From positions 248,001 through 312,000 of the forward strand of contig NZ_SUPW01000005.1 in the NCBI RefSeq assembly GCF_013337285.1: DNA of 64,000 nt. The letters run 5' to 3'. Positions 42,940-59,304 of this stretch are shown in pieces. Under the pieces are notes generated by a model. It did no database searches. It worked only from the letters and a program-made list of their open reading frames with translations, and was not told the DNA's origin. The translations under genes and the position numbers were made by a program. Each line of letters begins with the position of its first letter. Position 1 is the stretch's first letter. The stretch is from Agrobacterium tumefaciens (GTDB lineage: Bacteria > Pseudomonadota > Alphaproteobacteria > Rhizobiales > Rhizobiaceae).

Positions 42940-43069
42940 ACCGTTTCGCTTCCCGCGCCTTCAAAAAAATCGTCGGGGTGCGGATATCGAAAACGGCATG
43001 CGCAGATGCGCAACCCCAATGTTCGATCTGACCGACTGACCGGAGCACCCCGCCCGGCAGACGTTTTTT

Positions 43070-43265
43070 CTGAAACGGCAGGTCTCCTGGCTTGCGGCTT
43101 CAAAACACCCGGGCACCGCCTTCCCGAACCCATATTGAAGGCCCAGTGGCTTTACGGTGCGGGCTTACCGCTTACAGTTGCGGGGGCAGCCACGGAATGA
43201 CCCATTGTCCGGGTGGAACCGTGTTCCCTCTTAGCTTTTCCCGTTGCCGGGAAAAGACCGTCAGT
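43070..43265 (-). promoter_or_regulatory. cobalamin (B12) riboswitch
   Basis: On the minus strand the RNA reads, in order, GAGGGAACACGGT, the CCCGCAACTGTAAGCGG core, the B12 box GCCACTG (43144-43150) and AAGCCAGGAGACCTGCC. This is the full conserved set of the class-I cobalamin aptamer. It precedes DUF1636-cobW-cobN and so should repress these genes when B12 is high. The expression platform lies in the next about 130 nt; a TGCGCA-TC-TGCGCA stem there is the only obvious hairpin. Confidence 0.93.
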
Positions 43266-43271
43266 CCGCTA

Positions 43272-43300
43272 CCATTAGGCTGAACGGGGGTGAGGGTCAA
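43272..43300 (-). promoter_or_regulatory. promoter of the riboswitch operon
   Basis: TTGACC (43295-43300), 17 bp, then TAATGG (43272-43277) on the minus strand. Transcription would start near 43265, just before the aptamer. Confidence 0.6.
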
Positions 43301-46437: not shown

Positions 46438-47482
46438 GGGCGAGACAGTACCAGAAAAGGCTCAAGGAGCGATCCGTCACGGCGGCAATCTCGGCAAGGC
46501 GCGCCTGATGTTTCCTGACGCGCCTGAACCGTGGATCGACCTTTCGACCGGGATCAATCCGCACTCCTATCCGCATTCGCCGGTTCCCGCCAGCGCATTC
46601 GCCCGCCTGCCGGAACCGGATGCCGCCGAAGATTTGAAGCAGCTGGCAGCAGCCCATTTTGGCGCGCCTTCTGCCTCGCATGTCACGCTGTCTCCCGGCA
46701 CCCAGATGTTGATGCCGTTACTCGCTCAAGTCGCGCTTTCCCGTGGGGCAAAAAGCGGGGCCGTGCTTTCGCCCGCCTATGCCGAACATGCCCGCACCGC
46801 GCGCATGGCCGGACTAACCGTGACCGAAGTTGAAAATCTTGGCGACCTGTCAGCTCACGACTATGTGGTGGTGGTCAATCCCAACAATCCCGATGGCCGC
46901 ATCACGGATCGAGAGGCTTTGCTGTCTCTCGCCGATTCGATGCGTCGTAAAGGCGGCATGCTCGTCGTGGATGAAGCCTTTGTCGACGCAGGAGGGGCGG
47001 AAAGCCTCGCAAATGCTGCGGATCACGAGGCGCTGATTGTGCTGCGATCCTTCGGCAAATTTTATGGCATGGCTGGCGTGCGGCTCGGTTTCGCGATTGC
47101 GCGTCCCGATATTGCTGCCGCACTGGAAGCAAACTTAGGCCCGTGGGCAGTTTCCGGCCCGGCACTGCATATTGCGACCGAAGCTTTGGCAGACGAGGAA
47201 TGGCAATCATCCATGCGCCTCCAGCTCGCTAAAGAAGCCCGGCGCATGAATGACCTGCTGAAGGAAGCGAGGCTGGAAATCGCCGGCGGCACGTCCCTCT
47301 TCACGCTCGTTCGGGACAAGCGTGCCACAGCGCTGTTCGGCCATCTCGGTCGGCGCGGCATTCTGGTCCGCATTTTCGATGAAAGGCCGAACGACATGCG
47401 TTTCGGCCTTCCCGGCAGCGAAGCGGACTGGCAGCGCCTCGATGAAGCGCTGCTCTCTTTCTATCATCCCTCGAAGGTGTAG
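46436..47482 (+). CDS. cobC: threonine-phosphate decarboxylase
   Basis: PLP-dependent enzyme making (R)-1-amino-2-propanol O-2-phosphate, the CobD substrate. It has 348 residues: HGGNLGKARLMFP, WIDLSTGINPHSYP, VVVNPNNPDGR, and the PLP lysine in LRSFGKFYGMAGVRLGF. It starts on the CATG shared with cobD and overlaps the convergent L-fuconate dehydratase by 19 bp at its end. Confidence 0.96.
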   Translation: MGETVPEKAQGAIRHGGNLGKARLMFPDAPEPWIDLSTGINPHSYPHSPVPASAFARLPEPDAAEDLKQLAAAHFGAPSASHVTLSPGTQMLMPLLAQVALSRGAKSGAVLSPAYAEHARTARMAGLTVTEVENLGDLSAHDYVVVVNPNNPDGRITDREALLSLADSMRRKGGMLVVDEAFVDAGGAESLANAADHEALIVLRSFGKFYGMAGVRLGFAIARPDIAAALEANLGPWAVSGPALHIATEALADEEWQSSMRLQLAKEARRMNDLLKEARLEIAGGTSLFTLVRDKRATALFGHLGRRGILVRIFDERPNDMRFGLPGSEADWQRLDEALLSFYHPSKV

Positions 47483-48741
47483 GTCTCAATCGAATCCGGC
47501 TTCATTTCGATGGAGAAGCCCGGCAGTTTCGGCGGCATGTAAGCGGCGTTGCGGATATCGCAAGGCTCGATGAAGTGCTCGTGCAAGTGATCCACATATT
47601 CGATGACGCGACCTTCCTTGGTGCCCGATACCACCAGGTAGTCGATCATCGACAGGTGCTGCACATATTCGCAAAGGCCGACGCCACCGGCATGCGGCCA
47701 GACCGGTAGATTGTATTTGGCGGCAATCAGCAGCACAGCCAGCACTTCATTCAGCCCACCCATACGGCAGCTGTCGATCTGCACCACATCGATGGCGCCT
47801 TCGGCGATGAACTGCTTGAACATGATGCGGTTCTGGCACATTTCACCAGTTGCTACCTTCACGGAACCAATGGCTGCGCGAATCTTGCGATGGCCGGCGA
47901 TATCGTCCGGGCTGGTCGGCTCTTCGATGAAGAAGGGCTTGGAAAAGGCGAGCTTGTTCACCCACTCGATTGCCTGATCCACTTCCCACACCTGATTGGC
48001 ATCGATCATCAGATAACGGTCGGGGCCAATCACCTCGCGGGCGATGGTGAGACGGCGGATGTCATCCTCCAGATCGCGACCGACCTTCATCTTCACATGG
48101 TTGAAACCGGCATCGATGGCTTCCTGGCAAAGACGACGCAGCTTGGCGTCGTCATAACCGAGCCATCCGGCCGACGTCGTGTAGCAGGCATAACCCTCGT
48201 TCTTCAGCGTTTCGATACGTTCCTTCTTGCCGCTTTCGGCCTTTTTGAGGATCGCAAGCGCATCGTCGCGGGTCAGCACATCGGTCAGATAACGGTAATC
48301 GACGATATCGGCGATTTCTTCCGCGCTCATATCGGCAACAAGCTGCCACACCGGCTTGCCCGCCTTCTTCGCAAGCAGATCCCAGACCGCATTGACGACG
48401 GCACCGGTGGCGAGATGCATCGCACCCTTGTCCGGGCCGATCCAGCGCAGCTGGCTGTCGCTCGTCAGATGCCGCCAATATTTGCCGGGGTTCTCGGTAA
48501 CCATGGCAAGATCGGTGCCGACCACCAGATGCCGCATCGCTTCGATCGCCATGCAGCAAATGTCATTGCCACGGCCGATGGTGAAGGTCAGGCCATGGCC
48601 CTTCAGGCCCGGCTCGTCGGTGTCGAGAATGACATAAGCCGCCGAATAATCCGGGTCGGGGTTCATCGCATCCGAACCGTCGAGGCTCTGGGAGGTCGGG
48701 AAACGCAGGTCGAAAACACGCAGATCTGTAATTTTGGTCAT
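47464..48741 (-). CDS. fucD: L-fuconate dehydratase
   Basis: Enolase-superfamily enzyme that dehydrates L-fuconate to 2-keto-3-deoxy-L-fuconate. It has 425 residues. The catalytic Lys is in HVKMKVG, metal ligands are in LMIDANQVW, FFIEEPTSPDD and VATGEMCQN, and the catalytic histidine is in WPHAGGVGLCEYV. Known FucD enzymes also act on L-galactonate and D-altronate. It is the last gene of the nine-gene minus-strand sugar unit. Confidence 0.92.
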   Translation of the reverse strand: MTKITDLRVFDLRFPTSQSLDGSDAMNPDPDYSAAYVILDTDEPGLKGHGLTFTIGRGNDICCMAIEAMRHLVVGTDLAMVTENPGKYWRHLTSDSQLRWIGPDKGAMHLATGAVVNAVWDLLAKKAGKPVWQLVADMSAEEIADIVDYRYLTDVLTRDDALAILKKAESGKKERIETLKNEGYACYTTSAGWLGYDDAKLRRLCQEAIDAGFNHVKMKVGRDLEDDIRRLTIAREVIGPDRYLMIDANQVWEVDQAIEWVNKLAFSKPFFIEEPTSPDDIAGHRKIRAAIGSVKVATGEMCQNRIMFKQFIAEGAIDVVQIDSCRMGGLNEVLAVLLIAAKYNLPVWPHAGGVGLCEYVQHLSMIDYLVVSGTKEGRVIEYVDHLHEHFIEPCDIRNAAYMPPKLPGFSIEMKPDSIETYTFEG

Positions 48742-48777
48742 GGCCGGTTACTCGCGGTCAGTGTCAAAGGAAATCGT

Positions 48778-49107
48778 TCAATCGTGGTGGAAGGTTTCTT
48801 CCATCATCGCCCACCACTCGTCTTGCTTGCGGCTTTCGAGCGGTTGCTGGCAGGGAATGGTGAAAGACCACCATTCCTGGTTCTTGGGGCTTGCGGCTAT
48901 CTTCGCCATGTCAGCGCTGAAATCCGTGCCGTGATATTCCCAATAACCGAACAGCAGATTTTCCGGTTCACGCAGGAAGATCGTATAGTTACGGATGTTG
49001 CTGTCGCTGATGAGCGCCAGAACTTCCGGCCAGACGGCAGCGTGCAGCCTTTTATACTCCACGATCATGTCCGGTTTGACGCCTATGACCATGCCCATAC
49101 GCTGCAT
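48778..49107 (-). CDS. sugar mutarotase of the L-rhamnose mutarotase family
   Basis: 109 residues: MQRMGMVIGVKPDMIVEYKRLH, then YTIFLREPENLLFGYWEY and a final WWAMMEETFHHD. RhaM-type proteins interconvert alpha and beta pyranoses of 6-deoxy-sugars. Its place inside the fuconate cluster points to L-fucose or L-galactose rather than rhamnose; this is inference. It lies 11 bp after the tagaturonate-reductase-like gene. Confidence 0.85.
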   Translation of the reverse strand: MQRMGMVIGVKPDMIVEYKRLHAAVWPEVLALISDSNIRNYTIFLREPENLLFGYWEYHGTDFSADMAKIAASPKNQEWWSFTIPCQQPLESRKQDEWWAMMEETFHHD

Positions 49108-49118
49108 GAAAAACTCCG

Positions 49119-50252
49119 TTATTGCTTGATGGTGGCAAGCGCCGCGCGCAGCCCGTGTTGCGGCAGGTTCAACCCCAGCCGTTCTGCAGCAGCGATGATC
49201 GGGATGAATCGACGACGCTTCTTTTCATCGTGGTTACCGGCGATATCGGCCAGCCGATGCGCGAGAAAAGGATTGCGCAAACGTTCGCGCAACACACCGA
49301 TATAGACCGCAGCCTCATCTCCCATGCCTTCGGCAGCAAAGACCGGCAGAACCTCGTCCCGCCACAGCGTTTCCAGATCCGTAACGAGAGCGTCGTCGGC
49401 CATTGCCTGCCGCACCGTCTCGTCCTTGGCCCGGGCATCCTGCATCCAGCGCTCGGCCAGATAGGAATGGCCGAGATTGAGCAGAAAGAGCTTCAGTTTT
49501 TCGTAGTGGTCGAGATCATCCGTCAGCACGATCGCAGGGTGAGCGCATGGCAAAACGAGCCCTTCCTGCCTCTCGATCGCCCAGAGCGCATAGGGCTCCG
49601 CCACCGCACCAACTGGATCGATCGGCTCGGAGACGATGCGATCGACCAGACTATTGGCGAAACGGCATTTCTCGTTGAGATAAAAGGCAAACCCCGCCGG
49701 CAGCCGCCACTCGTCTGCAAGCTGGCGAATGACTTGCTGCAGCCTTTCGCCATTGCGCGGCACAAGCTCGCAGGGGAAGATCGACAAAGGCGCTTCCGGA
49801 TTGCTCTGAAAACGCTCCAGCAGCAACGTGCAGAGCTTCGCCGGAAAGCTTTTCGGCACCACCGTGAAATCGGCCGCAAGGCCAGGACCGTCAGCGGAAT
49901 CCAGCTCATAACCGCGATCGCCCGTATTGGACAGGATAACCTCGGCCACGCAGGCAAGACGCCGCACTTCGGCCCAGTCGGTCGCGGCCGTCAGCGCGCG
50001 TGCGACAGCCTTACCCGGAATTTCCTCTTCCACTTCCTGCCCATCGCTGATACCGCGAATGCGCACAGGGTAGGGCGCTCCGCTGTTCAGTGCCGCAACA
50101 CGCTTCAGGCTTTCCGCATTGCCGGTCGTCTGGACAATAGCGATATGTCCAAGAGCCTCGCCTTTATCCAGCGCCTGCGAAACGAACAAATCCGCATGCG
50201 CCAGAAGAAAGCGGCTGGTGCCAAATTGCAGAATGGGCGTGTCAGCTGTCAT
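49119..50252 (-). CDS. mannitol dehydrogenase family oxidoreductase, probable tagaturonate reductase (UxaB-like)
   Basis: 377 residues of the polyol long-chain dehydrogenase family. ILQFGTSRFLLAHADLF is the NAD-binding start, and KLKLFLLNLGHSYLA has the family Lys-x4-Asn-x2-His catalytic set. Together with the altronate-dehydratase-like gene it suggests interconversion of D-tagaturonate and D-altronate; fructuronate or another keto-acid is possible. Its start overlaps the Zn-dehydrogenase stop by 4 bp. Confidence 0.85.
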   Translation of the reverse strand: MTADTPILQFGTSRFLLAHADLFVSQALDKGEALGHIAIVQTTGNAESLKRVAALNSGAPYPVRIRGISDGQEVEEEIPGKAVARALTAATDWAEVRRLACVAEVILSNTGDRGYELDSADGPGLAADFTVVPKSFPAKLCTLLLERFQSNPEAPLSIFPCELVPRNGERLQQVIRQLADEWRLPAGFAFYLNEKCRFANSLVDRIVSEPIDPVGAVAEPYALWAIERQEGLVLPCAHPAIVLTDDLDHYEKLKLFLLNLGHSYLAERWMQDARAKDETVRQAMADDALVTDLETLWRDEVLPVFAAEGMGDEAAVYIGVLRERLRNPFLAHRLADIAGNHDEKKRRRFIPIIAAAERLGLNLPQHGLRAALATIKQ

Positions 50253-51259
50253 GCGACCTCCACCATGCCTTTGATCACTCCGGCTTTCGGATCGGTCAGA
50301 CCGGCGAATTTGGAAGGCACATCGGCAAGCGTCATACGGTGGGTGATCAGCGCTTCAGGTACCTTGCCTTCCCGCAGCGCCTGCAAAACGCGTTCGAAAT
50401 CCTCAGGCGTGGCGTTGCGGCTGCCGAGCAGCGTCGTCTCGCGCTTGTGAAACTCCGGATCGTTGAAGCTGATATCGCTGGCGACGATGGATACCAGCAC
50501 ATAGGAGCCGCCATGCCCGACGAAGGAAAACCCGCGCTCCATGGCCTTCGGATTGCCCGTCGCATCAAAAACCGCATCGAAGAAATCACCGCCGGTAATA
50601 TCGTAAAGGCGGTCTTTGTCGCCTTCACCAAGCGTTACCGTGTGGGCAACACCGAGGTGCTGCTTGCAGAAATCCAGCCGGTCGGTGCGCCCGTCGATCA
50701 TGGTCACCTCGCCACCATCGAGAGCCGCAAAAACCGCAACCGCCATGCCGATCGGGCCGGCGCCGACGATCAGGACCTTCTGTCCTTTCTCGACCGCTCC
50801 ACGGCGGACCGCATGGGCGCCAATGGCCAGAAATTCAGTCATGGCTGCCTGATCGAGGCTCAGCCCCTCCGCCTTCAGCACGAATTGCTGCGGCACGCTC
50901 AGATATTCGACCATGCCGCCGTCGCGATGAACGCCGAGAACGCCGATATTGCGGCAGCAATTGCTCTTGCCTTTCAGGCAGGCGCTGCACTCACCGCAGG
51001 AAATATAAGGGATGACGGTGACGACGTCGCCTGCCGTAAGATCGCTGCCTTCCGGTGCCTCTTCCACTGTCCCGGAAAGCTCGTGGCCCATGATGCGTGG
51101 GTAGGAAAGATAGGGCTGGTTGCCTGTGAAGATGTGTAAATCCGTACCGCAGACACCGATGCGCCGGATGCGCACCAGCACTTCACCTTCGCCACGAAGA
51201 GGCTTCGGCAGGTCCTTGGCGGTGAGTTGACCGGGAGTGTCACAGAAAATCGCCAGCAT
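50249..51259 (-). CDS. zinc-dependent alcohol dehydrogenase, probable L-galactonate (sugar-acid) 5-dehydrogenase
   Basis: 336 residues of the medium-chain family. Catalytic zinc ligands lie in GVCGTDLH and MGHELSG; the structural zinc cysteines are in CGECSACLKGKSNCC; NAD binds at VGAGPIGMAVAVF. It resembles RspB/LgoD-type enzymes, which oxidise L-galactonate to tagaturonate. Action on 2-keto-3-deoxy-L-fuconate is the main alternative. It lies 3 bp after the lactonase. Confidence 0.85.
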   Translation of the reverse strand: MLAIFCDTPGQLTAKDLPKPLRGEGEVLVRIRRIGVCGTDLHIFTGNQPYLSYPRIMGHELSGTVEEAPEGSDLTAGDVVTVIPYISCGECSACLKGKSNCCRNIGVLGVHRDGGMVEYLSVPQQFVLKAEGLSLDQAAMTEFLAIGAHAVRRGAVEKGQKVLIVGAGPIGMAVAVFAALDGGEVTMIDGRTDRLDFCKQHLGVAHTVTLGEGDKDRLYDITGGDFFDAVFDATGNPKAMERGFSFVGHGGSYVLVSIVASDISFNDPEFHKRETTLLGSRNATPEDFERVLQALREGKVPEALITHRMTLADVPSKFAGLTDPKAGVIKGMVEVA

Positions 51260-51262
51260 GCA

Positions 51263-52084
51263 TCACCTGTCAGAAAGGGAATAAAAACGGATGGCGTTGC
51301 CGCCAAAAACTGCCGCATGGTCCTCTGCCGGCACGATGTCGCGGCAGAAATCCAGCCAGCCCTGATAATCTCCCGCCAGTCGCAACACCGGCCAGTCGCT
51401 GCCGAAGATCGCGCGGTCGGCACCGAAGATTTCCAGAATGGTTTCGGCATAGGGCCGAACCGCTTCCGGCCGCTGATCGCCACGCTCCGTCAGCAGGCCG
51501 GAGAGCTTGCAATGGACGTTGGGAAGAGCAGCCAGAGCCGCCATGTCGCTCCGCCAGCCGCTATAATGACCGGTAGCGATCAATGGCTTCGCACCATGAT
51601 CGATGACAACAGGCAATTGCGGATAACGGCGGGCAAAGGAAAGGAGATGCGGCAGATTGGGCGGCAACACCAGCGCATCAAAGACCAGCCCGTGTTTCAC
51701 CAACGCTTCCACGGCGGCATCCAGCGCCTGATCGTCGATCCAGGCAATATCTTCCATGCCCTGCAGCATGGGGCGCACTCCCTTGAAGGCCGGATGTTTT
51801 GCCCGGCGGGCAATTTCCGTCACCGCATCGGGAGACTTCATGTCCACCCAGCCGACCACGCCCTTGATGAAGTCGGTCTTTTCCGCCAGCTCCAGCATGA
51901 AATCCGTATCGACCGCAGTCTCCATCGTCTGCACCAGCACCGTGCCGGAGACACCGGCTTCGGCCAATAACGGCGACAGATCGGCCGGAAGAAAATCCCG
52001 GTAGATGGCGGCGAGCGACGGCGGCGGCCATTGCCCGGCGCGGTCCTTCATCAACCAGAAATGCTGGTGGGCGTCGATGATCAT
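51263..52084 (-). CDS. amidohydrolase, probable L-fucono/L-galactono-lactonase (COG3618)
   Basis: 273 residues: MIIDAHQHFWL provides the HxH metal site, a later VVIDHGAKP and FGSDWPV carry further ligands. COG3618 members include L-fucono-1,5-lactonase and rhamnonolactonase. It opens the lactone made by the aldose dehydrogenase encoded 4 bp upstream. The start at 52084 puts the HxH near residue 5, as in the family; the longer frame to 52126 overlaps that gene. Confidence 0.88.
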   Translation of the reverse strand: MIIDAHQHFWLMKDRAGQWPPPSLAAIYRDFLPADLSPLLAEAGVSGTVLVQTMETAVDTDFMLELAEKTDFIKGVVGWVDMKSPDAVTEIARRAKHPAFKGVRPMLQGMEDIAWIDDQALDAAVEALVKHGLVFDALVLPPNLPHLLSFARRYPQLPVVIDHGAKPLIATGHYSGWRSDMAALAALPNVHCKLSGLLTERGDQRPEAVRPYAETILEIFGADRAIFGSDWPVLRLAGDYQGWLDFCRDIVPAEDHAAVFGGNAIRFYSLSDR

Positions 52085-52088
52085 GGCC

Positions 52089-53102
52089 TCAGGCCTTTCC
52101 GCCGGGTACGGGCGAACCTTCGGCAATCAGGCCGCGCCTGTGCAACTCAGACCAGAATTCATCCGGGATAGGCTGTTCGAACCATTCGATATTGGAGGCA
52201 AGCTGCTGCGCATTGCGCGCGCCTGACACGACCGTGACCGAAGCCGGATGGGCGAGCGGAAATTGCAGCGCGGCCGCCTGCAACGACACGCTCAGCTCCT
52301 CGCAAACGCCCTGCAGCGCATCGACGCGCGTGAGGATATCGGCAGGCGCATCGGCGTAGTTGAACTTGCGGTTGCCGGCCAGAATGCCCGAATTGAACGC
52401 ACCGGCGACGACGATGCCCACGCCGCTTTCAGCACAGCGGTTCATGAAGGCAAGGCTCTGCTGTTCCAGGAGCGTATAACGACCGGCAAGCATGGCGACG
52501 TCGATATCGAAGACATCCATCGCGTCGCTAACGATCTGCCATTCGTTGACGCCAAGGCCAACAGCTCCGGTCGACCCTTCTTCACGCAGTTTGCCAAGCG
52601 CCCGGAAGCCGCCGCCAGTGGTCAGCTGCTCCCAGTAATGCTGGTGCTTTTCGCCATGGGTGAAGGAGCCGATATCATGCACATAAAGAATATCCGGCTT
52701 CAGAACACCCAGCCGCTGCTGGCTAGCCTCGAAGGAACGCAGGATACCGTCATAGGAATAATCATAAGTCGGGCGGAACGGCAACGGCGCGATATAGGCG
52801 TCCTCTTCCGGGCCGACGGTTTCATCCGGAACCATCACACGACCGACCTTGGTGCTGAGTGTATAATCGCTCCGCTCATGCTCCGTTACCATGGTGCCGA
52901 GACGACGCTCCGATCGCGTGTAACCGTAAAAGGGCGCGGTATCGAAATAACGCATGCCGCTTTCCCATGCCGTATCGAACGCACCTTTGGACTCTTCATA
53001 GGGCGTAACGCGGTAGAGATTGCCCATCTGGGCGCAGCCGAGGCCCATGACCGTGACGTCAACGGCGCGGCGCGGCAATTTGCGTGTATCGGAGACTTTC
53101 AT
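52089..53102 (-). CDS. aldo/keto reductase, probable L-fucose (L-galactose) 1-dehydrogenase
   Basis: 337 residues. The catalytic tetrad is visible: Asp in YFDTAPFYG, Tyr in the same motif, Lys in LSTKVGR and His in YVHDIGS. The subgroup includes L-fucose dehydrogenase, L-galactose dehydrogenase and pyridoxal 4-dehydrogenase. As the first enzyme of the unit it should oxidise the sugar to a lactone with NAD(P). Starts at 53102; the longer frame to 53168 has a poorly conserved N-terminus. Confidence 0.88.
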   Translation of the reverse strand: MKVSDTRKLPRRAVDVTVMGLGCAQMGNLYRVTPYEESKGAFDTAWESGMRYFDTAPFYGYTRSERRLGTMVTEHERSDYTLSTKVGRVMVPDETVGPEEDAYIAPLPFRPTYDYSYDGILRSFEASQQRLGVLKPDILYVHDIGSFTHGEKHQHYWEQLTTGGGFRALGKLREEGSTGAVGLGVNEWQIVSDAMDVFDIDVAMLAGRYTLLEQQSLAFMNRCAESGVGIVVAGAFNSGILAGNRKFNYADAPADILTRVDALQGVCEELSVSLQAAALQFPLAHPASVTVVSGARNAQQLASNIEWFEQPIPDEFWSELHRRGLIAEGSPVPGGKA

Positions 53103-53133
53103 CGCAGGGACTTTCCGGGTTTTTCTTTGAAAA

Positions 53134-53159
53134 GGCGCGCCGCCGTAAAGCGGCGCGCC
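53134..53159 (-). terminator. strong hairpin between transporter and enzyme genes
   Basis: GGCGCGCCGC and GCGGCGCGCC form a perfect 10-bp GC stem around a 6-base loop, followed on the minus strand by TTTTC. It lies 8 bp after the binding-protein stop. It could be a partial terminator or a stabiliser of the binding-protein mRNA. Confidence 0.7.
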
Positions 53160-53167
53160 GTCATGCA

Positions 53168-54109
53168 TTAGTACAGAACGTTCTTGGCTTCCGGCTTTTC
53201 AACGTTGTCCTTAGTGACGACAACGACGCCAGTGTCGACGAACTTCTCAACCTTTTCCTTGTTGATGAGCTTGGTGATGGTTTCCACACCCTTTTCACCC
53301 ATCTGGTAGGAACCCTGAACGACGATGCCGGCCAGCGTGCCGTCCTTGACGAAGCCCTGAAGGTCCTGATTGCCGTCGAAGCCGATGCCGATGACCTTGC
53401 CGGCCTTACCGGTCTGGGCGAGCGCACGGCCAACGCCGATTGCCGTCGGCTCATTGGCGCCGAAGATGCCCTTCAGATCGGAATTCGCGGCCAGAACGTC
53501 GGTGGTCTGGTTCAGCGCGGTCGCCATCTGCGACTGCGAATAGAAAGGACCGACAATCTTAAGGTTGGAATTCATCTGGATGTAATCGGTGAAACCGCCA
53601 ACGCGGCCAATTTCCGAACCGGCGCCGGCGACGTATGACATGACGGCAATCTTGCCTTCCTTGCCCACCTTGTCGATCAGCGCCTGCGCTGCCAGTTCGC
53701 CGGCTTTCTTGTTATCGGTCGCGAGGAACGACTGGTAATATTGCTCCGAGCCGCTGGCCAGCTGCGAGTCGATCAGAACCACGGGAATACGGGCTTCCCA
53801 GGCCTTCTTGACGGCCGGAACCAGTGCATCCGGATCGGAAGGGGCAAGAACAATGCCTGCGACCTTACGGTTGATGGCGTTTTCAACCATGTTGACCTGG
53901 TCGGCGATCGCGGATTCGGCAGCCGGACCCTGGAAAGTCATGGTGTTGCCGGAAGAGTTCTTCATCGCCGCATCGGCGCCCTTCTGGACGTTCTGCCAGA
54001 AAGTGGAGTTGACGGTCTTGACAATGACGGCGATTTCGCCGGCCTGCACGGTGGAAACGCTCCACAGCGCGATTGCGGATGTCAGAAGGGCGGTCGCAAG
54101 TTTGTTCAT
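53168..54109 (-). CDS. sugar ABC transporter periplasmic binding protein (RbsB type)
   Basis: 313 residues with a signal peptide (LLTSAIALWSVSTVQAG). The type-1 periplasmic fold is shown by IAVIVKTVNSTFWQNVQKGA, GIVLAPSDPDALVPAV, VLIDSQL, and GIFGANEPTAIGVGRAL. The ligand is unknown; an L-fucose-like sugar is inferred from the neighbours. Confidence 0.92.
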   Translation of the reverse strand: MNKLATALLTSAIALWSVSTVQAGEIAVIVKTVNSTFWQNVQKGADAAMKNSSGNTMTFQGPAAESAIADQVNMVENAINRKVAGIVLAPSDPDALVPAVKKAWEARIPVVLIDSQLASGSEQYYQSFLATDNKKAGELAAQALIDKVGKEGKIAVMSYVAGAGSEIGRVGGFTDYIQMNSNLKIVGPFYSQSQMATALNQTTDVLAANSDLKGIFGANEPTAIGVGRALAQTGKAGKVIGIGFDGNQDLQGFVKDGTLAGIVVQGSYQMGEKGVETITKLINKEKVEKFVDTGVVVVTKDNVEKPEAKNVLY

Positions 54110-54185
54110 TTCTTCCTCCGTGATGTCGGCATACCGGGCCTCCCCTTGCCGATCTTTTTTGCGGAAAGGGTCCGCAGGCCCTTGA

Positions 54186-55208
54186 TCAGCGGCGGTTGCG
54201 CAACTGGTCGATCCAGACGGTGACCAGAATGACGAGGCCGATGATGATCTGTTGCGTGAAGGCGGAGACGCCGTTCATATTGAGACCGTTGCGCAGGATA
54301 CCGATGACGAAGGCGCCGATGGCTGTGCCGGAAATGGTACCAACGCCCCCGATCAGCGATGTGCCGCCAATGACGGCACTGGCAATCGCATCCAGCTCAT
54401 ACATCACGCCTTCATTCGGCTGGGCGGTGACGAGGCGCGACATCAGCACGCAGCCCGTCAGTCCAGCGAGCGTGCCGGACAGAATGTAGGTGAAATTGGT
54501 AACGCGGGCGACGTTCACGCCAGACAGGCGCGCCGCATCCGCATTGGAACCGACGGCATAGATATGACGGCCGAGGATCGAGCGGTTGAGCATGAAGGAA
54601 ACCGCAAGCGCAATCACCACCATCAGGATGACAGGGTAGGGGATGCCCGGAAACACCACGTTCGGGAAGCCGTCGTCACCGATATTGACGATGCGGAAGA
54701 GAGCGCCATTGCCGAGTTCGCCGAAGGATTCGCCGAGGCCAGAAACAGCACGCGCACCGGTGATCTGCAGGGCCACGCCGCGGGCGATCAGCATCATGCC
54801 AAGTGTGGCGATAAAGGGCGGCAGCTTAAAGCGTGTGACAAGCAGGCCGTTGATGAAGCCGCAAAGCGACCCCGTCAGAATGCCGAGAAACATGCCGATC
54901 GGCACCGGCATGCCAAGTTCTTTCACCGCAAGGGCTGCAACGACGCCGGCGAGCGCAAGCACTGAGCCAACGGAAAGATCGATACCGCCGGTGATGATGA
55001 CGCAGGTTGCGCCGATACCCAGCAGCGCGATGGACGTGACCTGCAATGCGATCGTCATGCCATTATTAACGGTGAAGAAAGCGCTGCTGGTTGCGGAGAA
55101 GACCGCTACAAGCGCAACGAGGCTGCCAAGCGCCGCAAATTTCTGGATGATGTCCTTTTGGCGGTCGCTGAAAGCGAAGCTCTTCTTTGGTTCTGCAATA
55201 TTGGCCAT
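54186..55208 (-). CDS. sugar ABC transporter permease (RbsC type)
   Basis: 340 residues with about 8-10 membrane segments. ITGGIDLSVGSVLALAGV and the FKLPPFIATLGMMLIARG region are the family signatures. The ATG at 55208 follows AGGAACG; a GTG at 55220 overlaps rbsA. It lies 8 bp after the ATPase gene. Confidence 0.94.
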   Translation of the reverse strand: MANIAEPKKSFAFSDRQKDIIQKFAALGSLVALVAVFSATSSAFFTVNNGMTIALQVTSIALLGIGATCVIITGGIDLSVGSVLALAGVVAALAVKELGMPVPIGMFLGILTGSLCGFINGLLVTRFKLPPFIATLGMMLIARGVALQITGARAVSGLGESFGELGNGALFRIVNIGDDGFPNVVFPGIPYPVILMVVIALAVSFMLNRSILGRHIYAVGSNADAARLSGVNVARVTNFTYILSGTLAGLTGCVLMSRLVTAQPNEGVMYELDAIASAVIGGTSLIGGVGTISGTAIGAFVIGILRNGLNMNGVSAFTQQIIIGLVILVTVWIDQLRNRR

Positions 55209-55216
55209 GTCGTTCC

Positions 55217-56779
55217 TCACTGCGCGGCCCGGCCGTAACCGGACGCATACCGCATGATTTCTTCCTGATTGGTCTTGGCGGTCTCAAGCACGCCCGTGAT
55301 CCGGCCCTGGTGGAAAACGGCGATGCGATCCGTCAGCCCGAGAATTTCCGGCAGCTCTGAACTGATGAGAACAACGCCGATGCCCTTCGCAGCCAGTTCG
55401 TCCATGATCTTGTAGATCGCGAATTTCGCGCCGACATCGATGCCGCGCGTCGGCTCATCGAAGAAGAGCACACGCGACTGCCGGAACAGCCATTTGCCGA
55501 TGATGATTTTCTGCTGATTACCACCAGAGAGCAGCCGCACCGTCTGCTGGATGGAAGGCGTGCGAATATTCAGAAGGTCGACGTAACGTCTGGCGACATC
55601 GTCGTGCTTCTTGAAATCGATCAGTCCGAAACGGTTGGAAACCTCGCCGATATTGGCAAGAGTTGTGTTTGCAGCAACGGACATCTTGATGGCCAGACCA
55701 TCGCTCTTTCTATCTTCCGACAGATAGGCAATGCCTTCCCTGATGGCGTCCTGCGGTGAGCGAATGGAAAGCTCGCGGCTCTCAAAAACGATTTTTCCAC
55801 TATCGAGGGCATCGGCTCCGAAGATCGCACGCGCCACCTCGGTGCGCCCAGCCCCCATCAGCCCGGCAAAACCGAGAATTTCGCCGCGCCGCAGTGAGAA
55901 GGAGACATTCTGAAACACGCCCGCGCGCGTCAATCCCTCGGCAGAGAAGATGATATCTTCGGAGGGATTCGATGTGCGCTCCGGGAACTTGTCTTCCAGT
56001 GAGCGCCCGACCATGCGCGTGACGATATCGTCAACGGTGATCGAAGCGAAATCGTCGGTAGAAATATAACGCCCGTCGCGCAGAACCGTCACGCGATCGA
56101 CGATCTCGGCCATTTCATCAAGACGATGAGAAATATAGACAATGCCGACACCGGATGCCTTGAGATCGCGAATGACCTTAAACAGCAGCCGCGTTTCCTG
56201 CTCGGTCAGCGAGGAGGTTGGCTCGTCCATGATGAGCACTTCAGCGTCAAGAGAGAGCGCCTTGGCGATCTCCACCATCTGACATTGGGCGACGGAGAGG
56301 CCACGCACAATCTGATCGGGGTCGATATCGACTCCCAGCCGATCGAGACAGCGTTTGGCATCGAGGCACAGCTTTTTGCGGTCGACGAGAAAGCCACGGC
56401 GCGGCTCGCGGGCAAGATAGATGTTTTCGGCAACGGAGAGATGAGGAACGAGGTTGAGTTCCTGATGGATAATAGCGATGCCTGCAGCTTCGGACTCCAG
56501 CGGCGATGCATATTGCACCTTCACGCCCTTGTGCAGGATCGTGCCGTCGCTCGGCTGGTAAACGCCGCTGATGATTTTCATCAGTGTCGATTTTCCAGCG
56601 CCATTCTCGCCGCAGACAGCGTGCACTTCGCCGCTGCGCAGATCGAAATGCACATTCGACAGCGCCTTGACGCCCGGAAATTCCTTGCTGATGTTTTCAA
56701 GACGCAGGAGGGCCGAACGCTCCGCGCCCGTCTCCTCAGGCGAAAAATCGCCCCGAATTGTCGATGCGCCCTGCGGCAT
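55217..56779 (-). CDS. sugar ABC transporter ATP-binding protein (RbsA type)
   Basis: 520 residues with two ABC domains. The first has GENGAGKSTLM, LSVAQCQMVEIAKAL and LIMDEPTSSL. The second has GLMGAGRTEVAR in place of a canonical Walker A, and LSGGNQQKIIIGKW, FFDEPTRGIDVGAK. The ATG at 56779 follows GGAGG. First gene of the nine-gene minus-strand unit. Confidence 0.95.
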   Translation of the reverse strand: MPQGASTIRGDFSPEETGAERSALLRLENISKEFPGVKALSNVHFDLRSGEVHAVCGENGAGKSTLMKIISGVYQPSDGTILHKGVKVQYASPLESEAAGIAIIHQELNLVPHLSVAENIYLAREPRRGFLVDRKKLCLDAKRCLDRLGVDIDPDQIVRGLSVAQCQMVEIAKALSLDAEVLIMDEPTSSLTEQETRLLFKVIRDLKASGVGIVYISHRLDEMAEIVDRVTVLRDGRYISTDDFASITVDDIVTRMVGRSLEDKFPERTSNPSEDIIFSAEGLTRAGVFQNVSFSLRRGEILGFAGLMGAGRTEVARAIFGADALDSGKIVFESRELSIRSPQDAIREGIAYLSEDRKSDGLAIKMSVAANTTLANIGEVSNRFGLIDFKKHDDVARRYVDLLNIRTPSIQQTVRLLSGGNQQKIIIGKWLFRQSRVLFFDEPTRGIDVGAKFAIYKIMDELAAKGIGVVLISSELPEILGLTDRIAVFHQGRITGVLETAKTNQEEIMRYASGYGRAAQ

Positions 56780-56835
56780 CTGGAAACCTCCCACCCGTGT
56801 TCCCCGCTCCACCGGGGTGCCTTCAACAGGCCAAA

Positions 56836-57052
56836 TGGTTAGGCCGGTTTTTTTGAATGGTCAAGCCAATTAGGCCAAAATTTGAAATACGGTTTTGAAA
56901 GGAACGGAATGCCTACCTATAGAAAACAGATATAATTCTGTAAATTCTTATATTTAAGTAATTTCTTGCGTATTGATACGCTTGGCGTTACGGTAAGGCC
57001 AAATAGAGATTGCAGACAGGGCTTATCGAAAAACACATGAATGGTCAGGCCA
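56836..57052. promoter_or_regulatory. five TGGTCAGGCCA-like elements, candidate GntR operators
   Basis: Copies at 56836-56846 (TGGTTAGGCCG), 56858-56868 (TGGTCAAGCCA), 56867-56877 (CAATTAGGCCA), 56991-57001 (CGGTAAGGCCA) and 57042-57052 (TGGTCAGGCCA). The best copy is the imperfect palindrome TGGTC-A-GGCCA, like FadR-type operators. On the minus strand the first two overlap a TTGACC-N17-TAACCA promoter-like pair for the transporter unit. The last one lies in codons 2-6 of the regulator gene. Confidence 0.55.
56895..56923 (+). promoter_or_regulatory. sigma-70-type promoter of gntR
   Basis: TTGAAA (56895-56900), 17 bp, then TATAGA (56918-56923). An inverted repeat ACAGA-N6-TCTGT (56926-56941) sits directly downstream and may be a further operator. 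Confidence 0.6.
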
Positions 57053-57729
57053 AAATAGCGGAACCACGCCGGCTCTATCAGCAGATAGCGGACCAGATAC
57101 GTGAACTCATTGATCTCGGTGAATTTCTGCCCGGAACACGGCTTCCGGCCGAACGGGAGCTGGCGCAGAAGCTCGGTGTATCGAGACCCTCGTTGCGAGA
57201 GGCGCTGATTGCGCTTGAAATCGACAACACTGTCGAAATTCGTATGGGTTCCGGTGTCTATGTATCGACAGAGGCTCTCCAGACTACCCATCACACCAAA
57301 TCGCTGGGCGACAGCCCCTCTGAACTGATGCAGGCGCGCGCCGCCCTGGAAGGCGCAACCATCGTGCTGGCGGCAAGCCGCATGACAGATGAAACGATCT
57401 CAAGCCTTCGCCAGATCCTGAATACCATGCAGAAGGAAATCGAGGCCGGACGCAAACCGCTGGATCAGGATCGGCTGTTTCACGTCACCATTGCCGAACA
57501 ATCCGGCAACAGCGTCCTCACACGGCTGGTGGCAAATCTTTTCGACGAACGACACAGCCCCATTTCAGCCCAGTTGCGGGTCAAATTCGAGGATCGGGAT
57601 ACCTGGACCCATGCGCTTCAGGAGCACGAAGCCATTCTGGCAGCTCTCGAACTCAAGGATCCGCTATTGGCGCAGGCGGCCATTCATATCCATCTGGAAG
57701 GCTCCAAGCGGCGCTGGGTCGAAAGCTGA
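57037..57729 (+). CDS. GntR-family regulator, FadR/FCD subfamily
   Basis: 230 residues. The N-terminal winged helix (RLYQQIADQIRELIDLGE, LPAERELAQKLGVSRPSLREAL) is followed by an FCD effector domain (ARAALEGATIVLAA, DRLFHVTIAEQSGN, HEAILAALE). It diverges from the transporter unit and precedes the UxaA-like gene by 42 bp, so it probably controls both. The ATG at 57037 is preferred over a TTG at 57010; no clear ribosome site is present. Confidence 0.92.
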   Translation: MNGQAKIAEPRRLYQQIADQIRELIDLGEFLPGTRLPAERELAQKLGVSRPSLREALIALEIDNTVEIRMGSGVYVSTEALQTTHHTKSLGDSPSELMQARAALEGATIVLAASRMTDETISSLRQILNTMQKEIEAGRKPLDQDRLFHVTIAEQSGNSVLTRLVANLFDERHSPISAQLRVKFEDRDTWTHALQEHEAILAALELKDPLLAQAAIHIHLEGSKRRWVES

Positions 57730-57771
57730 GTTAAAAACATAGCAGGCAATATACCGGGAGGAGGAAAACCC

Positions 57772-59304
57772 GTGAGTGAGAATTCCGAGGCAACCATTTT
57801 GCTGAACGCCAACGACAATGTTGCGGTGGCGCGCCGGTCAATTCCGGCCGGTGGTGCGACGGGGAGGGGCGATCTGACGGCTCGTGAGTTGATCGGGCGC
57901 GGGCACAAAGTGGCCCTGAAATACATCAAATCCGGAGACGAGGTACTGAAATACGGCCAGGTGATCGGTATCGCCACTCAGGATATCGAACCGGGCCGAC
58001 ACGTGCATCTGCACAATCTCGCAATGGTGCCCTCCGAGCATACACATCAGTTCAGCGTCGATATCGAAGAAAAGGGCATGGTGCCGGAAACCGAGCGCCG
58101 CACCTTCATGGGTTATGATCGCGGGCTCGGCGGCGTGGGCACACGCAACTATATCGGCGTCATCGCATCGGTGAACTGTTCCGCCACGGTGTCGCGTTAT
58201 ATCGCCGACTACTTCAACAAGCAGGGTGGACTTGACGGTTTCGACAATGTCGATGGCGTCGTAGCGCTGACGCACGGCGGGGGCTGCGCGCTGAATACCA
58301 AATCGGAAGGCTATCGCCTTCTGATCCGCACCATCCAGGGTTATGCTCGCCATCCCAATTTCGGCGGTATTCTGCTGATCGGCCTCGGCTGCGAAACCAA
58401 CCAGATCGCCCCTATCCTCGAACATTACAAGATGGAAGAGGGCGAGCGGCTGCGCACCATGACGATCCAGCAGCACGGCGGCACGCGCAAGACAATCGAT
58501 GCGGCGATTACCGAGATCAAGGCCATGCTGCCGATGGTCAATGCCGCCCGCCGTACCGAACAACCGCTTTCGAAGCTGAAGGTGGCGCTGGAATGCGGCG
58601 GTTCGGATGGCTACTCCGGCATCTCCGCGAACCCGGCCTTGGGTTATGCATCCGACCTCATCGTCCGCAATGGCGGCACGACGGTTCTTTCCGAAACACC
58701 GGAGATTTACGGCGCGGAGCACCTGCTGACAAAGCGCGCCGTCACCCCGGCGGTCGCCGAAAAGCTGTTGCAGCGCATCGACTGGTGGCGGGATTATACC
58801 GCGCGCAATGGCGATGAACTCAACAACAACCCCTCCCATGGCAACAAGCTCGGTGGGCTGACCACCATTCTGGAGAAATCGCTGGGTGCAGTCGCCAAGG
58901 GCGGTTCCATGCCGTTGAAGGCCGTTTACGAATTCGCCGAGACCGTCACCGAGCAAGGTTTCGTTTTCATGGATACACCCGGCTACGATCCCGTTGCCGT
59001 TACTGGCCAGGTCGCCGGCGGCTGCAACGTCATCTGTTTCACCACCGGCCGCGGCTCGGTGTCCGGTTTCAAGCCGTCACCCTGCATCAAGATCGCCACC
59101 AATTCCGAAATGTATGAACACATGAAGGAAGACATGGATATCAACTGCGGTGAGATTGTTACCGGTACAGAAACTATCGAAGAATCCGGCAAACGAATTT
59201 TCGAACATATTCTGGCCGTGGCTTCCGGCGACAAGACGGTGAGCGAAATTTACGACTACGGCGACAACGAATTCGTGCCGTGGCAGGTCGGGGCGGTGAC
59301 CTGA
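57772..59304 (+). CDS. UxaA-family altronate dehydratase-like protein
   Basis: 510 residues: an N-terminal SAF domain (to about residue 100) and a C-terminal altronate/galactarate dehydratase domain (GTRNYIGVIASVNCSATV, THGGGCAL, GLGCETNQI, ECGGSDGYSGISANPALG). It would convert D-altronate to 2-keto-3-deoxygluconate. The start is a GTG behind GGGAGGAGG. Probably cotranscribed with the regulator. Confidence 0.92.
   Translation: MSENSEATILLNANDNVAVARRSIPAGGATGRGDLTARELIGRGHKVALKYIKSGDEVLKYGQVIGIATQDIEPGRHVHLHNLAMVPSEHTHQFSVDIEEKGMVPETERRTFMGYDRGLGGVGTRNYIGVIASVNCSATVSRYIADYFNKQGGLDGFDNVDGVVALTHGGGCALNTKSEGYRLLIRTIQGYARHPNFGGILLIGLGCETNQIAPILEHYKMEEGERLRTMTIQQHGGTRKTIDAAITEIKAMLPMVNAARRTEQPLSKLKVALECGGSDGYSGISANPALGYASDLIVRNGGTTVLSETPEIYGAEHLLTKRAVTPAVAEKLLQRIDWWRDYTARNGDELNNNPSHGNKLGGLTTILEKSLGAVAKGGSMPLKAVYEFAETVTEQGFVFMDTPGYDPVAVTGQVAGGCNVICFTTGRGSVSGFKPSPCIKIATNSEMYEHMKEDMDINCGEIVTGTETIEESGKRIFEHILAVASGDKTVSEIYDYGDNEFVPWQVGAVT

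Follow-up and report, generated by a model that had tools for sequence, protein, structure and literature searches.

An Agrobacterium gene island predicted to serve the catabolism of both L-galactose and L-fucose

We analyzed a 64,000-nucleotide stretch of Agrobacterium tumefaciens DNA (contig NZ_SUPW01000005.1, positions 248,001 to 312,000; hereafter the window), which lies in contig C15 of a 5.0-Mb genome and carries, between cobC and purH, an island of 11 genes that probably serves the use of L-galactose and L-fucose. An original prediction, made from this DNA alone, had named the genes and arranged them as one minus-strand unit with a UxaA-like dehydratase and a GntR regulator divergent from it. 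Both content and layout were borne out: an open-reading-frame check of the window found all 11 genes as intact frames where they had been placed, and the ten proteins scanned against family libraries all fell into the expected families (MR_MLE/FucD, rhaM, Mannitol_dh, Zn-ADH, Amidohydro_2, Aldo_ket_red, CUT2-type binding protein and ATPase, GntR-FCD, and SAF-UxaA). The permease, the only island protein not scanned, is named from its position and homology. Nine genes form a compact minus-strand unit, while gntR and uxaA lie on the plus strand. Judged by the longest frames, the spacings from the RbsA gene to the FucD gene are -4, +76, -1, -38, +3, -4, +11, and +36 bases, and because they are so tight or overlapping we read the nine genes as one operon.

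The operon begins with an ATP-binding cassette (ABC) importer. Its RbsA-type double ATPase (55217..56812, minus strand; start codon uncertain) matches NCBIfam sugar ABC ATPases at up to 583 bits, with all displayed scores below their cutoffs. The RbsC-type permease (54186..55220, minus) is an open frame with orthologues of 96-100% in all 11 of the relatives' loci described below and 63% identity to an annotated ABC permease of Paracoccus. The CUT2-type sugar-binding protein (53168..54109, minus) scores 517 bits to 4wut, the Agrobacterium vitis protein Avi_5133, for which a search of open-license literature found no paper. As its predicted structure had a mean pLDDT (the model's own confidence score) of only 45.8, the fold search served only to supply the title of 4wut. 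Next come an aldo-keto reductase (AKR; 52089..53168, minus), predicted to be an L-galactose/L-fucose 1-dehydrogenase, and a COG3618 amidohydrolase (51263..52126, minus), predicted to be a lactonase. The AKR has an Aldo_ket_red match in Pfam, and its nearest PDB entries are L-galactose dehydrogenases, at only 85 bits. The best NCBIfam match of the lactonase is L-fucono-1,5-lactonase (204 bits), and it scores 135 bits to PDB entry 4dlf. Judged by the frames in one relative's locus (L004), the true starts of these two genes are probably near 53102 and 52084, respectively.

The enzymes assigned to L-galactonate breakdown resemble those of the E. coli LgoD-UxaB-UxaA route. The Zn-dehydrogenase (50249..51259, minus), expected to be of RspB/LgoD type, proved to be nearer to E. 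coli LgoD (270 bits; 41% over 335 aa) than to RspB (142 bits), and by homology alone it would be an LgoD-kind L-galactonate 5-dehydrogenase. In a tree of these dehydrogenases, the Agrobacterium sequences grouped with betaproteobacterial ones with a support of 94/87, which falls below the tool's star and is a hint only. We also considered this enzyme as a candidate ketodeoxyfuconate dehydrogenase (KDFDH) and rejected the idea, as it is LgoD-like and a separate KDFDH-like protein exists. The 377-aa reductase (49119..50252, minus), predicted to convert D-tagaturonate to D-altronate, shows the kinship claimed for it, with 120 bits to E. coli UxaB versus 53 to UxuB and tagaturonate reductase (PRK03643, 201 bits) as its best family. 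The UxaA-like protein (57772..59304, plus), the sole match of its kind in the genome at E 0.001, is predicted to be a D-altronate dehydratase; as E. coli UxaA (36%) and the compared part of GarD (~37%) are about equally distant, its substrate is taken from context. A relative of 2-keto-3-deoxygluconate (KDG) kinase, recognized by homology (40% to E. coli KdgK), is encoded at C12:313577-314470.

Two island genes point to L-fucose. FucD (47464..48741, minus; C15:295467), a relative of L-fuconate dehydratase in the enolase superfamily, scores 533 bits to 2hne and 710 to 4ip4, and the next-best match to it in the genome is only 32% identical. Its KxK, DAN, IEEP, TGE, and PHAG motifs align with those of the L-fuconate dehydratase 2hne, and we take the aligned residues to be the catalytic ones. 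The mutarotase (48778..49107, minus) had been called RhaM-like, which holds for its family (Pfam rhaM); more exactly, it is a relative of L-fucose mutarotase, with 173 bits to 7byu and no more than 43 to yiiL and the L-rhamnose mutarotases. For the lactonase, the comparison covered the Amidohydro_2 family. The genome has three Amidohydro_2 places, and of these the island's protein is nearest to the lactonase of an S. meliloti FucD cluster (29%, 101 bits); with 37 bits for one of the others and no match for the last, it is the likeliest of its family to act in fucose use. That S. meliloti cluster (L015) is itself named by homology, since a search for locus tags found no paper.

The last two enzymes of the fucose route had been expected to lie elsewhere in the genome, and relatives of both were indeed found, by homology, outside the FucD operon. 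The KDFDH-like protein, a short-chain dehydrogenase/reductase (SDR) encoded at C18:87297-88013, is 62% identical to the SDR of the S. meliloti FucD cluster and scores 317 bits to 8xwk/8y4j, the structures of H. huttiense L-KDFDH (PMC11199699). Its gene is divergent from an IclR gene that is 57% like the IclR of the S. meliloti cluster. The hydrolase, at C15:334008-334844 and thus 22 kb beyond the window, is 78% identical to the hydrolase that adjoins FucD in S. meliloti; its best NCBIfam match is 2,4-didehydro-3-deoxy-L-rhamnonate hydrolase, at 420 bits under a cutoff of 500. On contig C18 (L045 6288-7253 (+), 8223-9020 (+)), the IclR gene stands between the SDR gene and a frame that, by eye, looks like a transaldolase.

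Gene content, kinship, linkage, and operator boxes are observed, and from them we infer every substrate and the regulation proposed here. In our model, the ABC importer would take up the sugar and the mutarotase would speed anomer exchange, after which the AKR would oxidize C1 and the COG3618 enzyme would open the lactone. The LgoD-like enzyme would then oxidize L-galactonate at C5 to D-tagaturonate, the UxaB-like enzyme would reduce this to D-altronate, and UxaA would dehydrate the product to 2-keto-3-deoxygluconate for the KDG kinase encoded elsewhere. L-Fuconate, which lacks the 6-hydroxyl, would be dehydrated by FucD instead, and its route would be completed by the ketodeoxyfuconate dehydrogenase and the hydrolase from the two other genome sites. 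Overall, we consider it probable that the products of the island import both sugars, oxidize them through the same early steps, and then send them into two branches. The L-galactose branch is likely, and passage of fucose through the same early enzymes is plausible.

The divergent region contains three operator-like boxes (56833..57006; core YGGTHARGCCRRWT), with 19-base matches that begin at 56833, 56855, and 56988, and these are conserved in the aligned Agrobacterium sequences. In the same-genus genome G116, the first box has no pattern match, and P. phymatum lacks an exact match. The adjacent regulator (57010..57729, plus; start uncertain) has GntR and FCD domains, is 36% identical to E. 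coli ExuR, and belongs with the ExuR/UxuR kin; it probably represses both arms of the island. We built a box matrix from the window, 11 relatives, G116, G113, and Burkholderia cenocepacia and applied it to ten other loci. In six of these (Cupriavidus, Comamonadaceae, Diaphorobacter, G013, G015, and G115), the best matches lay at the gntR orthologue and scored 23.9-28.1 bits. The best match was 13 bits or less in the other four (Thalassospira, Thioclava, Sphingomonas, and Paracoccus), all of which are without a gntR orthologue at the linkage cutoff. A fourth box-like match (57039-57057, plus) lies inside the start of the gntR frame; it may serve autoregulation or just be coding sequence. We also considered whether GntR co-regulates the late fucose genes, which is unsupported: exact box matches numbered 10 genome-wide versus 11 for a reversed control, three of the 10 lie in the island, and one other lies 169 bases past the end of the SDR gene rather than upstream of it.

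Loci from 11 named relatives all carry the same genes in the same order, plus cobC, so the grouping is no accident. As these loci were found by having the reductase, they cannot tell how often the island is absent. The nearest is that of Rhizobium rhizogenes GBBC3284 (reductase 97% identical), and across all 11 FucD is 96-99% and the mutarotase 86-98% identical. The purH side was viewed in the window, G016, and G116. Outside Agrobacterium, we compared 37 loci with a related reductase, made up of 16 plasmid loci hand-picked from the 40 listed of 314 records and 21 Rhizobiaceae loci (all non-own reductase matches at E 1e-50). With fixed identity and length cutoffs over stretches of 12-25 kb, the Zn-dehydrogenase was present in at least 23 of the 37, the AKR in 18, UxaA in 17, the lactonase in 6, the mutarotase in 3, and a KDFDH-like gene in 2, with the Zn-dehydrogenase and UxaA together in 14. 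Because of the fixed cutoffs these counts are lower bounds; for instance, an annotated mutarotase and amidohydrolase of Sphingomonas went uncounted.

In Burkholderia cenocepacia, gntR is divergent from genes for RbsA, RbsC, the binding protein, AKR, lactonase, Zn-dehydrogenase, and UxaB in the island's order; UxaA follows UxaB there instead of standing behind gntR, and FucD is missing. Cupriavidus, Diaphorobacter, and Thioclava have minimal sets of Zn-dehydrogenase, UxaB, UxaA, and kinase, and the gene sets of all four taxa fit a single pathway module. Two other loci also combine genes of both routes. The Sphingomonas parapaucimobilis locus brings together a Zn-dehydrogenase, mutarotase, UxaB-like reductase, split UxaA, AKR, amidohydrolase, FucP, and an SDR that is 59% like that of S. 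meliloti, and the Rhizobiaceae genome G120 (C23:138000-157900) holds the hydrolase, a KDFDH-like SDR, UxaA, an LgoD-like Zn-dehydrogenase, an importer, a UxaB-like reductase, and a mutarotase in ~13 kb. A search at E 1e-150 found no FucD match anywhere in the G120 genome, and its UxaA may dehydrate both acids. From these two loci we suppose that merging probably happened more than once.

Across 131 genomes of the family, a search at E 1e-150 found FucD in 47, one at E 1e-50 found the UxaB-like reductase in 22, and one at E 1e-100 found the hydrolase family, counted with its paralogues, in 114. At least 23 of the 47 genomes with FucD have a hydrolase match no more than 5 kb away from it. FucD and the reductase co-occur in 15 genomes; they are neighbors in the genome studied here and on separate contigs in the other 14.

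Neither route is new, so the island would be a new arrangement and not a new kind of system. Sharing of a locus by fucose and L-galactonate genes is already in print for Halomonas, whose authors in 2017 proposed shared use and likely co-regulation (PMC5507952). According to that published description, on which our comparison rests in place of sequences, the Halomonas loci resemble the island in placing fucose genes with lgoD, uxaA, and uxaB or uxaF, and strain HL-93 is credited with every step of the fucose pathway and with an ABC system whose predicted substrate is L-fucose (PMC5507952). By the same account, those loci carry a TRAP transporter for acids and the last two fucose enzymes (COG0179 and COG1028), whereas the island's only transporter genes encode the CUT2 ABC importer and the last two enzymes are encoded elsewhere in this genome (PMC5507952). 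In Luteolibacter LG18, the L-galactose route of the lgu genes is proven by enzymes and mutants (PMC12632266). Like the island, lgu is described with an AKR, L-galactonate dehydrogenase, UxaB-like reductase, and UxaA-like dehydratase, with the KDG kinase elsewhere; unlike it, the cluster's legend lists no FucD, lactonase, or importer, and L-galactose is paired with L-glucose and not with L-fucose (PMC12632266). The same paper cites L-galactose catabolism via D-tagaturonate in Phocaeicola (Bacteroides) vulgatus, a likeness to the proposed intermediate that we know through this description (PMC12632266). The E. coli LgoD-UxaB-UxaA route has the same three reactions (its enzymes, the nearest characterized relatives compared, are 29-41% identical to the island's), but its three genes are scattered and the symporter gene lgoT lies beside lgoD. 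For the fucose branch, this genome encodes relatives of four proteins of the non-phosphorylating L-fucose route 3 outlined in PMC11199699 and PMC6336799: the mutarotase, FucD, KDFDH, and the hydrolase. They occupy three places here, compared with one cluster in S. meliloti.

The shared entry and two branches of the original prediction remain the best reading: the genes present, their nearest kin, their linkage across species, and the discovery of both late fucose genes at other sites all agree with it. Several observations weigh against it, so that it is supported in part. The predicted lactonase, reductase, and dehydratase miss the curated cutoffs of their families: the lactonase reaches 204 of 400 bits, the reductase 201 of 359, and the UxaA-like protein 389 of 731 for the galactarate dehydratase model. 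The C18 SDR scores almost as well with human BDH2/DHRS6 (2ag5; 300 bits) as with L-KDFDH, and other entries reach 189 at most. The ligand of 4wut is reportedly D-fucose and not L-fucose. FucD occurs in none of the 37 loci outside Agrobacterium, so its linkage to L-galactonate genes is confined, among the loci seen, to the Agrobacterium group, and six of the 37 had none of the Zn-dehydrogenase, UxaA, AKR, or lactonase counted. As the L-galactonate genes are linked in these loci and FucD never is, we regard the former as the module and FucD as a local addition. The box matrix gave best scores of 2.5 upstream of the hydrolase, 7.5 upstream of the SDR, and 7.8 at the KDG kinase locus, none a good operator; with no GntR operator found at the late fucose genes, co-regulation of the whole fucose branch is unsupported. 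Finally, LguA of Luteolibacter is reported not to accept L-fucose (PMC12632266), so the AKR cannot simply be assumed to act on both sugars.

Two further genomes of the same genus, searched at this site, both lack the full set, and they too count against the scheme. In G016 (C6:264000-283900), FucD stands alone between cobC and purH. G116 (C40:204000-223900) has FucD, the Zn-dehydrogenase, lactonase, AKR, importer, GntR, and UxaA, with neither the reductase nor the mutarotase here (for the mutarotase, the search covered this site). No other reductase match was found in its genome at E 1e-50, where the Mannitol_dh_C family is represented only by a 515-aa frame and by a UxuB adjoining UxuA. Retention of the dehydrogenase and UxaA without the reductase tells against the latter being indispensable, or reflects decay.

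A rival idea is that the island is an L-galactose operon only, with FucD and the mutarotase as relics of a broken-up fucose operon and any fucose entering via other enzymes. The restriction of FucD linkage to the Agrobacterium group, its solitary state in G016, and the scattered late fucose genes without a GntR box would all fit, yet FucD and an L-fucose-type mutarotase are kept in all 11 relatives' loci at the identities given above. Moreover, a KDFDH-like SDR gene of this genome neighbors an IclR gene resembling that of the S. meliloti cluster, and the genome encodes no COG3618-type fucose lactonase nearer than the island's own. We consider this explanation unlikely. The G116 locus, which keeps FucD without the reductase, could also suggest that FucD dehydrates L-galactonate directly and that the LgoD-like/UxaB-like detour serves something else. 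The FucD of Xanthomonas is reportedly promiscuous, which counts for this idea. So does an L-galactonate dehydratase of Acidovorax that is cited as unpublished data in PMC6336799. However, the LgoD-like, UxaB-like, and UxaA genes are linked without FucD in 14 of the 37 loci and so have a use without it, and of the explanations weighed here we find this one the hardest to credit.

It is also improbable, though not to that degree, that the reading of dual L-galactose and L-fucose use is too narrow and that the enzymes really act on other sugars with a similar geometry, for instance L-glucose or D-arabinose. In favor of this, the substrates of one dehydratase described in PMC6336799 include D-arabinonate, D-altronate, L-fuconate, and L-galactonate. 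Against this, the L-fucose-type mutarotase and FucD indicate the L-galacto/L-fuco series, and the Luteolibacter L-glucose route also needs a C4 epimerase, which is not among the island genes (the genome was not searched for one).

If the two-branch reading holds, a possible history, which we offer tentatively and would not yet favor, is that in Agrobacterium a stand-alone fucose operon was dismantled and its upper half replaced by the oxidizing enzymes of an L-galactose operon. One early set would then serve both sugars, and the 6-hydroxyl would decide between LgoD-type oxidation where it is present and FucD dehydration where it is absent. Under such a history, the loci of G016 and G116 would reflect a merger being gained or decaying at one and the same site; together with the full island, they form a natural series for watching two pathways join or separate. 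Plant cell walls contain L-fucose, plus some L-galactose in rhamnogalacturonan II, so the use of both could benefit a bacterium that lives with plants. Our literature searches, which covered open-license papers, found no report of this Agrobacterium island. Its clear gene assignments can be put to the test in a common group of plant-associated bacteria.

Recent acquisition of the island was considered on composition and is unsupported, as its G+C in 1-kb steps (0.54-0.60) is close to that of the examined flanks (0.56-0.61). Upstream of the island, the window also contains a cobalamin riboswitch (43060-43277, minus strand; 115 bits), close to cobalamin-looking genes.

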